DNA of 27,195 bases from a virus: IMG/VR virus record IMGVR_UViG_3300042522_000051, positions 1-27,195 of that record; one strand, written 5' to 3'. Under the pieces are notes generated by a model. The model searched no databases, was not told where the DNA came from, and was given only the letters and a program-made list of their open reading frames with translations. Shown one piece after another: positions 18,623 to 25,834 of the stretch (position 1 is its first letter; each line of letters opens with the position of its first letter). The translations under genes and the position numbers were made by a program.

Positions 18623-20140
18623 ATGGCTCCAAGAGACATACTATATACTCCAGAGGGGGACGCCTTAAAAAGCAGATACATTGAATTAATTTCAGGATCT
18701 GACGTACCTAGGGTAGATAGGGCTATTGATATTATCTACCAAACTCCAGATAGTATTATTATTCCTTATTTGGAAAATGCTTTAGCTAGAAATCCAGAGG
18801 CTGATCCTAAGAAACTTGTCTCTGCAATCTCTGGTGCGGAATCTAAAATTTTCAAAGATTATCAAGCCGCTCCTTGGGATGAAGTTCATCATGGACGAGC
18901 AAGCCTCAGTTCCATGAGAAATATCAGATACTTGTCTCCAGAGGAAAGAGTATTTGCGTTAAACAAAACAGCTGAAGTTGTAGGTGGCCCAATCGGTAAT
19001 AGTCCATTTAATTTGGGTGGTAATGTAGCTGGTCGTGGTGCTCATACTGGTGGTAGCATACCTTGGAAAAATCCAGAAGGAATTAAATATCGAGAAGCAT
19101 ACGATCTACCTACAACTCCTAAATCTCAAAGTATGCACCCAATGGGAACTGATGCTGCGAAGGATCCAAGGGGATTAGTCGTGCCTCAAGTTGATACTGG
19201 TGCTGACTTTGTTCAACGGGCTAAAGATTCAATTAAAATTCAATTTAATGATACTGTTACTGGTAGATATTCAGACCTACCAAGACGTGTTATTGTAGAG
19301 AATATGCTGCAAGGTGCCCAAAGGAAGAGGGGTAATTTTTCTACTGGGTCCGGTCTCTTATATGGTGTTGATGCTAATCCACAAGATGTAAAAGCAGCAA
19401 AAACGTTTTTACAGTTGCCAGAAAATGAGCAGCTGCGTATCAATATGCTTAAGGGTTCCTTTACCCCAGATAGTCCGCAAGGTCAGAAGTTTTTAGCTAA
19501 TCCTAAAAATGCGGCTCTTGCTGATATGTATATTAGCCAGTTATACAACGCTAATCTACCAATACCTATCCCAACAGGATCTCAACTTAAACAACTGGCA
19601 CCAAGTATCAAGGCACAACTACCATTTAACGTTAGTTCTGCTATTGAACCTTTGCAAAGAGGTCAGCCTACTAAAGCTCTAGAGGAAGTTGCTAAAGGTA
19701 CTGCTATTGGTATGGCAACAGATCCTATAGTTAAACCTATCATGAGCAGGCTAATCCCTGCTGTTGGTTCTGTTGCTGCAGCTGCTCCTGTTGCTACTAC
19801 GGCTGCTGCTGCAGTAGCTAGTGAATTGGCAGCTCCTAGGGCAGCACAAGGTGGTCCTGAGCGTGTCACAGTTAATGGAACACCTTATTGGCTAGATAAA
19901 AAAGCCAATAAAGTCTACACTAACGATGGTCGTCCTACTAGCTTTGGTGTTGATATTAGAGGAGGTAAGCCGCAATTAGTTCCACGTGGTCAAGGTGCTG
20001 GTACCAAAAGAGCTGCGGCTGATCCAATTAGACAAGCTATGCAGGGTAATCTAATGCCAGCCTTGAATATGCTAAATCCTATGTCTCAACTACTGCGTTT
20101 TTCCAATAGTGCAATGAAGACTATCCGTGGTGAGGTGTAA
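18623..20140 (+). CDS. 505-residue protein with HH...N...H motif, function unknown
   Basis: GGGAG at 18611-18615 supports the ATG. Residues 80-145 contain WDEVHHGRASLSSM (H89, H90), then GNSPFNLGGN (N126-N134) and GAHTGG (H141). This order resembles the His-His / Asn / His layout of HNH/Endo VII-type nucleases of the toxin kind; that reading is inference only. Residues about 375-410 are an Ala-rich hydrophobic stretch (VGSVAAAAPVATTAAAAVAS). The C-terminus has VTVNGTPYWLDKKANKVYTN, which looks like a small beta domain. The gene is AT-richer than the structural genes around it. It lies between the two terminase genes, so a packaging or virion-cargo role is conceivable. Confidence 0.75.
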   Translation: MAPRDILYTPEGDALKSRYIELISGSDVPRVDRAIDIIYQTPDSIIIPYLENALARNPEADPKKLVSAISGAESKIFKDYQAAPWDEVHHGRASLSSMRNIRYLSPEERVFALNKTAEVVGGPIGNSPFNLGGNVAGRGAHTGGSIPWKNPEGIKYREAYDLPTTPKSQSMHPMGTDAAKDPRGLVVPQVDTGADFVQRAKDSIKIQFNDTVTGRYSDLPRRVIVENMLQGAQRKRGNFSTGSGLLYGVDANPQDVKAAKTFLQLPENEQLRINMLKGSFTPDSPQGQKFLANPKNAALADMYISQLYNANLPIPIPTGSQLKQLAPSIKAQLPFNVSSAIEPLQRGQPTKALEEVAKGTAIGMATDPIVKPIMSRLIPAVGSVAAAAPVATTAAAAVASELAAPRAAQGGPERVTVNGTPYWLDKKANKVYTNDGRPTSFGVDIRGGKPQLVPRGQGAGTKRAAADPIRQAMQGNLMPALNMLNPMSQLLRFSNSAMKTIRGEV

Positions 20141-20511: not shown

Positions 20512-20982
20512 ATGAACAAACAATGCCGTTCCTGTGGCGTGGAAAAGCCTTTAAGCGAGTTCTATAAAAAGGGAGCAGGATGCACAGCTCACTGTATTAC
20601 ATGTACAAAAGAGAAATACAGAACTGAGGAGTACAGATCTTATCAGCGTAATTATCAAAAAGAACACACAACTATTGAGCAAGCAATGCTCAACAGAAGT
20701 AAAAGCCGAGCCAAACGCAAGGGGTTCGAGCATAACATTACACTAGAGGATATTCAGATTCCTGATAAATGCCCGTTATTAGGAATACAACTAAGTAAGG
20801 GATCGGTAAGTGTCCAAGAAAGCTCTCCAACCTTAGATCGCATAGACTCATCAAAGGGTTACATTAAGGGTAACGTCTGGGTAATTTCGTATAAAGCTAA
20901 CACCATTAAATCTAATGCCACACCAGAAGAACTCCTCACCATCGCAACAAGACTCACTAACTTTATTGCAGCAAGACTTTAA
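20512..20982 (+). CDS. HNH endonuclease with N-terminal zinc ribbon, homing type
   Basis: Encodes 156 residues. Residues 5-31 form a zinc ribbon (CRSCGVEKPLSEFYKK, CITC) like that of the nuclease at 17229-17639. The C-terminal half carries the phage HNH pattern CPLLGIQL, SPTLDRIDSSKGYIKGN (D109, R110, D112, N121), VWVISYKANTIKSNATPEE (N130), common in free-standing phage endonucleases. No ribosome site is visible and the gene stands apart after a hairpin. Its last 68 bases overlap the start of the large terminase, if that starts at 20915. The AT-rich composition shared with the terminase 5' half fits a mobile gene with a co-converted flank. Confidence 0.88.
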   Translation: MNKQCRSCGVEKPLSEFYKKGAGCTAHCITCTKEKYRTEEYRSYQRNYQKEHTTIEQAMLNRSKSRAKRKGFEHNITLEDIQIPDKCPLLGIQLSKGSVSVQESSPTLDRIDSSKGYIKGNVWVISYKANTIKSNATPEELLTIATRLTNFIAARL

Positions 20983-23689: not shown

Positions 23690-23692
23690 CTG

Positions 23693-23728
23693 CGTTAAGG
23701 GGCCTCTCTACCGACGCTAAGGGGTCCT
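23693..23728 (+). repeat. Two direct repeats CGyTAAGGGGyCyT
   Basis: CGTTAAGGGGCCTC starts at 23693 and CGCTAAGGGGTCCT at 23715, 22 bases apart, directly after thyX. An A-run follows (23729-23735). Short clustered repeats of this sort flank the terminal repeat in T7, but two copies are weak evidence. Confidence 0.6.
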
Positions 23729-23949
23729 TAAAAAATAGCATAAATTTAACAAGTCTTATATCGCCAGAGGGTCTCGTATTTCCCCCCAGTGCCCCCCTCT
23801 TGCGATCAAGGACTCACAGCCAATGTAGTTGTTAACTGCTAGCACTGTGTCCACTGTGAGCCTGCGAGCAGCCTCTGTCCAGCGTACCTGTGCCTGATGC
23901 AGATACTCTGGACACGGTACTTGGGCACTGTCACCATCTATAGTCACGC

Positions 23950-24022
23950 CTTATTGAGAATGAATCGCAATAAGCAATGAGTTACTGAGATACAATGATA
24001 AGGTATTGTAATGGTTCATTGC
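23950..24022 (+). repeat. Back-to-back nested AT-rich palindromes
   Basis: CTTATTG (23950-23956) pairs with CAATAAG (23968-23974). Directly abutting it, GCAATGA (23974-23980) pairs with TCATTGC (24016-24022), and inside that TACAAT (23991-23996) pairs with ATTGTA (24005-24010). All three stems are perfect. The block is AT-rich within a GC-richer non-coding region and could be an operator, an origin element or a processed RNA hairpin. Confidence 0.75.
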
Positions 24023-24386
24023 TGTATGATAAGTTATGTGTATAGGTAGATATGAAGTGATCTGTCTGGCCCTACCAACTCAACAGTACAGCGCAGCTAT
24101 AACGCTCTCAGACACGCCTAGAAGCGGCTATAAGGTGCCTCTAACCGTTGCTAGGTATACTGAGCCCTAGAGCACAGTAGAGAGCCTTACAGCCACCATT
24201 CACGTGCATAGCCTTTTTGCAGTAGTTCGCCTATGACGCGACCTGTAGCACTATTTCCATTCACACGATGCGTTCACTTCGTTCACACTCACGCCCAGCA
24301 TCACATAGCAGCCCTACGGTTCGGATCGATAAGGAACGCTGATAGGGTCAATTAGGGGGCTACACGGATCCACTGGGTTCTGGGGC

Positions 24387-24416
24387 TTGACACATCGGCC
24401 TAGGGGCTGGTATGTT
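24387..24416 (+). promoter_or_regulatory. Sigma70-type early promoter candidate
   Basis: A perfect -35 box TTGACA (24387-24392) is followed after 18 bases by TATGTT (24411-24416), four of six matches to TATAAT. It points toward the early genes starting at 24644. It is the best host-type promoter in the non-coding region. The -10 overlaps the left arm of the inverted repeat at 24400-24466. Confidence 0.6.
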
Positions 24417-24466
24417 AGATGAGTCGGTGGGGGAGGCGAGACCGTCGCTCTACCACCAGCACCTAG
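24400..24466 (+). repeat. 12-bp inverted repeat with inner hairpin
   Basis: CTAGGGGCTGGT (24400-24411) pairs with ACCAGCACCTAG (24455-24466) at 11 of 12 positions. The loop holds GAGGCGA/TCGCTC around GACCG, and an alternative GGTGG/CCACC stem (24426-24430 with 24453-24457). The arms cover the promoter spacer and -10, so it may be an operator or a DNA-level structure rather than only an RNA leader. Confidence 0.7.
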
Positions 24467-24481
24467 ATAACTTAATAGTGT

Positions 24482-24564
24482 GTGGTCGTCACAAGACGGA
24501 CTTAGCGAAGCGAGCGATCCCGCGAACAGTTATAGGTTGCAACCCGACCTGACTGTACGACCAC
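24482..24564 (+). ncRNA. Structured leader element, multi-stem, 83 bases
   Basis: GTGGTCGT (24482-24489) pairs perfectly with ACGACCAC (24557-24564). Directly inside the right arm, ACAGT (24526-24530) pairs with ACTGT (24552-24556), enclosing AGGT/ACCT and the palindrome GGTTGCAACC (24535-24544). This predicts a junction of two or three stems in the RNA upstream of the first early gene. It lacks canonical D, anticodon and T arms, so it is not called a tRNA. The RNA nature is inferred. Confidence 0.45.
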
Positions 24565-24575
24565 GTATCTAATCA

Positions 24576-24604
24576 TTAGTGCAGAGCCACATGCGCTATA
24601 TAAA
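24576..24604 (+). promoter_or_regulatory. Second early promoter candidate
   Basis: TATAAA (24599-24604) within TATATAAAT is a good -10. TTAGTG (24576-24581) at 17 bases is a poor -35. The position, about 40 bases before the first early start codon, favours a role in early transcription. Confidence 0.4.
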
Positions 24605-24643
24605 TTAGATCATGGCAACCGTTCACAACTATTGGAGTTAATT

Positions 24644-24793: not shown

Positions 24794-24867
24794 TGCTAGC
24801 CCTGACTATCCTAATCATCGGCACCATTTACACTATTAAGGAGATCAATGACAACGTTTACCTTTGA
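24793..24867 (+). CDS. 24-residue hydrophobic micropeptide (possible)
   Basis: The ATG shares its A with the stop of the preceding gene (TGATG), ideal for translational coupling. The product is MLALTILIIGTIYTIKEIND plus NVYL: a 12-residue hydrophobic run followed by a short polar tail, long enough for a minimal membrane insertion. Its last 20 bases overlap the next gene in another frame, and the AAGGAG ribosome site of that gene (24838-24843) lies inside it. It may be a real micropeptide or only a leader that carries ribosomes to the next gene. Confidence 0.42.
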   Translation: MLALTILIIGTIYTIKEINDNVYL

Positions 24868-25066
24868 TGATCTACGTGCTGCTGTGCAAGACTGTACCAG
24901 CTATGACTTAGTTCAACGCATGGGTGATGACTATGAGGAGTACGCCTTGATTGATCCTTATGGTGACCAGGATGGTGATGCGTTCTATGAGTTGGGTATG
25001 GTAGAATCCTACATTCGATATAACTTTGATATCGAGCAGTACCTTAACGCACTCACTGATAAATGA
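24848..25066 (+). CDS. Small acidic early protein, 72 residues
   Basis: Starts at ATG 24848 with AAGGAG at 24838-24843. The product is strongly acidic and aromatic (DDYEEYALIDPYGDQDGDAF, then YIRYNFDIEQYLNAL) and has no membrane segment. The charge pattern is that of DNA-mimic or inhibitor proteins used in host takeover, which is a suggestion only. No family recognised. The stop overlaps the next start (ATGA at 25063). Confidence 0.75.
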   Translation: MTTFTFDDLRAAVQDCTSYDLVQRMGDDYEEYALIDPYGDQDGDAFYELGMVESYIRYNFDIEQYLNALTDK

Positions 25067-25240: not shown

Positions 25241-25834
25241 ATGACTACCACCACAAGTGCTTTCGTTAACACTCAAGCCGCACCTATCTTTATGCTCAAG
25301 GGTGATTCACTTCTTAACTTCGTTAACGAAAAGATGCCCCTTATTAATAGAGGAGAGCTTACTCGCACTGATATGATCAAGGACGCAGGTTATGTCTATG
25401 ACAATGGTAAGGCTATGTATGTAGACTTCTACACTGAGTTGCTCAATGCACGAGGTATTGTACCTACCACCGACACTGATGTAGCTGATAAGGAGTATGA
25501 TGACATGAGCACTGATGAGAAGGATCTCTATGATAAGATCACTGATATGCTCGGTAGCAAGTGGACTCATGAGGAAACGATTGAGTTCATGGATGAGCTA
25601 GCTGACATTAGTATCACCACTGCCGATGAGTTCGAGGATGCTTACTATGGGTACAATGATGAGTATCATGCTGAGCGTTACTTTGCAGAGGAGTTTGTTA
25701 ATGAGCTAGAGGATCTCAAAGATTCCATTGTGTATGCTGCTATTGATTGGCAAGCTGTGTGGGATCATCAACTTCGGTATGATTTCAGCACCATTGAGAC
25801 TAACAACGGCACATTCTTCTTCCATAACTATTGA
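25241..25834 (+). CDS. cyAbrB-like domain fused to ArdA-like antirestriction domain (putative)
   Basis: Encodes 197 residues. Residues 19-74 (LKGDSLLNFVNE, then DMIKDAGYVYDNGKAMYVDF and YTELLNARGI) match the pattern of the cyanobacterial AbrB-like regulator core, LL..V...R.e.a...GYy...ng....dFY.A.l.ArGi. Residues about 105-197 are acidic (about 19 Asp/Glu in 57 residues) and follow the ArdA C-terminal pattern: DEFEDAYYGYND, FAEEFVNEL, then IDWQAVWDHQL and a terminal GTFFFHNY. ArdA proteins mimic DNA and block type I restriction enzymes. The early location fits anti-restriction. No ribosome site is seen; CATTCACAATCA lies in the leader. Both domain calls are by eye and should be treated as hypotheses. 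Confidence 0.7.
   Translation: MTTTTSAFVNTQAAPIFMLKGDSLLNFVNEKMPLINRGELTRTDMIKDAGYVYDNGKAMYVDFYTELLNARGIVPTTDTDVADKEYDDMSTDEKDLYDKITDMLGSKWTHEETIEFMDELADISITTADEFEDAYYGYNDEYHAERYFAEEFVNELEDLKDSIVYAAIDWQAVWDHQLRYDFSTIETNNGTFFFHNY

Follow-up and report, generated by a model that had tools for sequence, protein, structure and literature searches.

A cyanophage protein joining the N-terminal domain of cyAbrB to an acidic, ArdA-type domain

The window, by which we mean the whole 27,195-base stretch analysed here (IMG/VR virus record IMGVR_UViG_3300042522_000051), resembles Synechococcus phage DSL-LC07 in its right part and carries a 197-aa ORF with an ATG start (Table 1). A protein search recovered 58 IMG/VR loci, most at 60-73% identity, with about 55 viral contigs encoding full-length relatives (60-74% identity); so do five isolated Synechococcus podoviruses (DSL-LC07, S-CBP1, S-B28, WH11-B and 7B11-B). 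Conserved residues are present in the N-half and the C-half alike (alignment A1, 45 sequences), and purifying selection acts on both, the median dN/dS over 150 pairs being 0.22 in the N-half and 0.17 in the C-half. These values and the conservation identify the ORF as a translated, selected two-part protein, ruling out a chance ORF or an annotation artefact. Single-sequence Pfam and NCBIfam scans of the protein gave no credible match; weak matches to “enhancer of rudimentary” and SseB lay under the cut-off and were discarded.

Table 1. Positions in the window of the fusion gene and of the features within it
Feature	Position	Strand	Evidence
Fusion protein CDS, stop codon included	25241..25834	+	>50 viral contigs keep full length; dN/dS about 0.2
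cyAbrB N-terminal domain homologue, residues 16-75	25286..25465	+	hhalign 98.1%, E 6e-14; AF2 pLDDT about 93-95
Ala49, at the conserved cysteine position of the cyAbrB CGY motif	25385..25387	+	Alignment counts
Acidic ArdA domain 2+3-like (sArdC-like) domain, residues 83-197	25487..25831	+	hhalign, AF2, 2w82, PHROG 36653
Signature IDWQAVWDHQL, residues 168-178	25742..25774	+	Aligned to conserved Y[FI]DYEAYGRDL of ArdA domain 3 (alignments A1, A4, A6; hhalign)

In three of the phages (DSL-LC07, WH11-B and S-CBP1), small genes surround the gene, and the phage RNA polymerase is encoded downstream of it. This is the expected early region in T7-like phages, and T7 biology suggests that the gene would be expressed early in infection. 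In NATL2A-133, a standalone gene for the C-domain adjoins a DNA methyltransferase gene. Elsewhere in the window, upstream of the fusion gene, positions 24848-25066 (+) encode a very acidic 72-aa protein (phrog_35755, E 2e-20) that could be another anti-host protein, and an HNH/endonuclease VII-like gene (phrog_3322; 20512-20982, +) precedes the large terminase gene and overlaps its start. The ~0.9 kb downstream of the thymidylate synthase gene (23690-24630) holds no convincing ORF and is possibly a genome-end or early-promoter region; a comparable stretch of DSL-LC07 (19125-19999) is free of annotated genes.

A sequence-only reading had tentatively assigned residues 19-74 to the DNA-binding regulator family cyAbrB. 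The likeness is real: reversed and cross controls of the hhalign comparison between the phage N-domain and cyAbrB reached only 0.1-0.2% (compare Table 1). When the A1 profile was searched against 386 cyanobacterial genomes, cyAbrB genes were matched by the first ~65 profile positions only (E 1e-11 to 1e-9 on re-scoring), the profile aligning with the first ~60 residues of the cyAbrB frames; a cyAbrB query served only to fetch real loci. The Pfam AbrB-like model PF14250 maps downstream of this match within the same genes, as on the minus strand of G141:C1, where the phage-profile match lies at 405911-406081 and PF14250 at 405740-405949; in a 133-aa cyAbrB, PF14250 spans residues 45-113. The DNA-binding domain of cyAbrB is its C-terminal region (PMC4284466), and PF14250 had no match in the window or its relatives (seven phage records searched), its place in the phage protein being occupied by the ArdA-like domain. 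By profile homology, then, the phage N-half is the cyAbrB N-terminal domain without the AbrB-type DNA-binding part, and the description of it as a DNA-binding domain fails, since that domain is C-terminal in cyAbrB and absent here.

The phage N-half carries a net charge of -1, and fused N-domains average -1.8 against +2.6 for the N-domains of cyAbrB. With the DNA-binding domain absent and the N-half near neutral, the opposite charge logic once expected of the two domains does not arise. cyAbrB proteins (PF14250; Synechocystis cyAbrB1/2) share with the phage protein the N-terminal pattern LTG..LL..V...[ST][KR][ST][DE]...GY...NG....FY..LL.A[KR]G; apart from lacking the C-terminal DNA-binding domain, the phage protein differs at two sites. 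The residue before GY is C in 142 of 145 cyAbrB proteins but A or S in 64 of 65 fusion proteins, and the GY-to-FY stretch is 11 residues long in the fusions and usually 15 in cyAbrB, making the hairpin four residues shorter than in most cyAbrB. Glutathionylation of C34 in cyAbrB2 stops DNA binding (PMC13421787). The cysteine of the CGY motif is, from its position, likely the equivalent of C34, and since the fusions lack it, their N-module may escape redox control. A structure search with residues 21-73 returned mostly winged-helix domains (SelB, Zalpha, BigR) at Z 2.1-2.6, below significance (Z <3), and we therefore claim no fold for this domain.

The C-half is as acidic as had been noticed from the letters, with a net charge of -25 over 115 residues and 28% D+E; domains 2-3 of Tn916 ArdA, by comparison, have -19 over 104. 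In hhalign, a broad alignment of 97 C-domains matched 25 ArdA sequences at 95.8% (E 8e-9), a narrow C-domain alignment reached 78.6%, and 20 column-shuffled ArdA alignments gave at most 0.9%. The C-domain profile also found a cyanobacterial ArdA (E 1e-4) and the ArdA of Rhizobium phage Pasto (E 9e-4), and PHROG 36653, “anti-restriction protein”, matches the C-half (3.6e-5). At the position of the signature in Table 1, cyanobacterial ArdAs have IDWxxxW. The phage protein scores below the cut-off of the Pfam ArdA model PF07275, a search of seven phage records with that model found no match and the control genomes were likewise without one, and the A1 profile matched none of the PDB sequences.

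Structure prediction, which had been proposed as a check on the ArdA assignment, agrees with it. Modelled by itself in AlphaFold2 (pLDDT 91.4, pTM 0.80), the C-half has ArdA 2w82, identical in sequence to our Tn916 ArdA query, as its best PDB match in Foldseek (prob 0.94, E 0.1). VIA superposes 97 residues of the model on ArdA residues 64-164 (Z 6.0, rmsd 3.4), with the next-best row, an unrelated one, at Z 3.5; in the viral structure library BFVD, the leading matches include proteins named as antirestriction or ArdA. Because the match to 2w82 starts at ArdA residue 64, the C-half corresponds to ArdA domains 2+3. Profile comparison and the predicted fold together show its homology to these two domains, domain 1 being absent; the ArdA pattern seen in the C-half is thus upheld, though not as a whole ArdA, and the cyAbrB N-domain stands in place of ArdA domain 1. 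With both halves homologous as proposed, and the full length conserved in more than 50 contigs, the two-domain cyAbrB/ArdA-type fusion is confirmed.

Our survey of architectures covered 80 viral loci and three others, 83 C-domain proteins in all: the cyAbrB N-domain is present in frame in 73, eight are intact standalone proteins and two run off contig ends. The standalone forms, about the size of sArdC, occur in related viruses and in one cyanobacterial genome. In one cyanobacterial genome (G274), an N-domain of this fused type, having both the Ala and the shortened hairpin, is joined to a complete ArdA in a 250-aa protein (PF07275, E 3.5e-23 at residues 77-231), the sole such case found among the 399 genomes of its order that were searched; a viral contig (L339) has a closely similar N-domain joined to the phage-type C-half. 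In an N-domain tree built on 58 columns, a group of 28 out of 29 fusions, to which the cyanobacterial N-domain-ArdA belongs, separates from cyAbrB. Support is weak (67/95; 42% of bootstraps give one origin), and a single origin of the fused N-domains is therefore possible rather than shown.

The cyAbrB N-domain was also observed in other settings. Prochlorococcus phage P-TIM68 encodes it alone as a 52-aa protein (L251:2501-2659), and in Synechococcus phage B23 it is followed by a further tail in a 142-aa protein (L252:2465-2893); both are annotated hypothetical. In viral contigs L353 and L354 it is fused to other partners, lying in the middle of a 240-aa frame and C-terminally in a 141-aa frame. 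Many contigs classed as viral (L342-L418) encode full-length cyAbrB-like proteins, N-domain plus AbrB-like domain, in which the CGY cysteine is retained (about 115-180 aa). Genome G118 has the domain behind a membrane segment in a 1110-aa frame with degenerate, HEAT/LRV-like helical repeats (L203:1-2070, -), and a second such frame of 589 aa. In five cyanobacterial loci (L233, L236, L237, L238, L239), ArdA is preceded by a different, common extension of ~75 aa, L.F..E.DA..V.EQ.YN...VG..LI.

On balance, we favour the view that this protein, encoded in the early region of a cyanopodovirus, belongs with the ArdA antirestriction proteins as an sArdC-like DNA mimic whose host-derived module serves targeting or oligomerisation, and that it probably disarms host proteins acting on viral DNA. 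In the mechanism we infer, the acidic C-half would dimerise through its ArdA-domain-3-like part, and the dimer would present a DNA-like surface. Early in infection this surface would fill the cleft in which a host enzyme binds DNA, the enzyme being most likely a type I restriction-modification complex. The domain derived from cyAbrB may add a second contact or self- or hetero-association, which could for example gather the mimic on the nucleoid or into oligomers. It is the activity of sArdC that leads us to favour antirestriction by DNA mimicry: this 114-aa protein by itself shields phage lambda from EcoKI and EcoR124II (PMC12548430). The joining of the same N-domain to a complete ArdA in a cyanobacterial genome points the same way. 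Counting against antirestriction, Roberts et al. place this activity in ArdA domains 1 and 2, and antimodification in domain 3 (PMC3906837); the phage protein lacks domain 1, and among PDB structures it finds a match of moderate quality, at Z 6 and Foldseek E 0.1.

The strongest rival, in our estimate unlikely, is counter-silencing of cyAbrB, in which the N-domain would bind host cyAbrB while the acidic C-half shields or occupies an AbrB-type DNA-binding surface, lifting repression of AT-rich phage DNA. The N-module does derive from a nucleoid protein for which such a part has been proposed: the AT-rich DNA bound by cyAbrB2 includes IS elements, and the protein may act as an H-NS-like defence against foreign DNA (PMC11368403). 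Phage antagonists of H-NS and MvaT exist, and sArdC also appears to bind a transcription repressor, AllR, and to derepress its promoter (PMC13300388). Retention of the N-domain in 73 of 83 C-domain proteins under selection (dN/dS 0.22), and loss of the cysteine that is likely the C34 equivalent (PMC13421787), would fit as well. However, protein contacts through the cyAbrB N-domain are an assumption, oligomerisation of cyAbrB2 being only expected (PMC11368403); eight relatives manage without the N-domain, and the cyanobacterial fusion to a normal ArdA fits a role in restriction equally well.

Two further explanations concern the N-domain. It may be a winged-helix-like contact for nucleic acid or RNA polymerase through which the mimic reaches incoming DNA or the transcription machinery, as suggested by the largely winged-helix matches of residues 21-73, by the standalone 52-aa protein of P-TIM68 and by a published recruitment idea for ArdC-N/ArdA polyvalent proteins (PMC5512222). 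We think this improbable, as Z-scores below 3 are not significant and the slight acidity of fused N-domains, set against the positive charge of cyAbrB N-domains, goes in the wrong direction for DNA binding. Least credible, to our minds, is that the two halves fused by chance and that the N-domain is only a folding or solubility leftover without a role of its own; related viruses do keep standalone C-domain proteins, but the N-half is under purifying selection, and the Cys-to-Ala and hairpin changes are consistent across the fusions.

An ArdA-type function is not new here, as the gene is already deposited as “antirestriction protein” in three isolated phages (DSL-LC07, WH11-B and 7B11-B). For the fusion of a cyAbrB domain to an ArdA-type domain we found no description in the literature searched, which subscription journals lay mostly outside. 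What emerges is that a nucleoid-protein domain from the host is fused to a DNA-mimic domain in a conserved and widespread manner, and that the N-terminal region of cyAbrB is a mobile module that can be separated from the rest: it occurs by itself, joined to a full ArdA or to other partners, and within full-length cyAbrB proteins of viral contigs. Should the rather doubtful idea hold that cyanophages use a piece of a host nucleoid protein to home a DNA mimic onto cyAbrB, blocking silencing of phage DNA and possibly also restriction, this would be the first dedicated anti-silencing protein against cyAbrB. The fusion offers a direct handle on the function of the N-terminal domain within cyAbrB, and on whether cyanobacteria silence phage DNA through cyAbrB as enterobacteria do through H-NS.

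T7 Ocr, whose gene lies at the left end of the T7 genome, and T4 Arn are early acidic phage DNA mimics, and the fusion protein would be like them in kind only, with no relation of sequence or fold claimed. With ArdA (Tn916 ORF18, PF07275, PDB 2w82), of which there are several phage examples, it shares homologous acidic domains 2+3, but it lacks domain 1 and goes unscored by PF07275. The polyvalent ArdC-N/ArdA proteins of Firmicutes elements likewise fuse ArdA to a nucleic-acid-related domain, with another partner; the survey describing them lists few polyvalent proteins in cyanobacteria and leaves AbrB unmentioned (PMC5512222). sArdC is also a ~114-aa, acidic protein comprising the C-terminal part of ArdA, dimer interface included, and independent of ArdA domain 1 (PMC12548430). 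It stands alone, whereas the C-half described here comes from cyanophages, is preceded by the cyAbrB N-terminal domain and, in contrast to sArdC, reveals its likeness to ArdA only by profile or fold.
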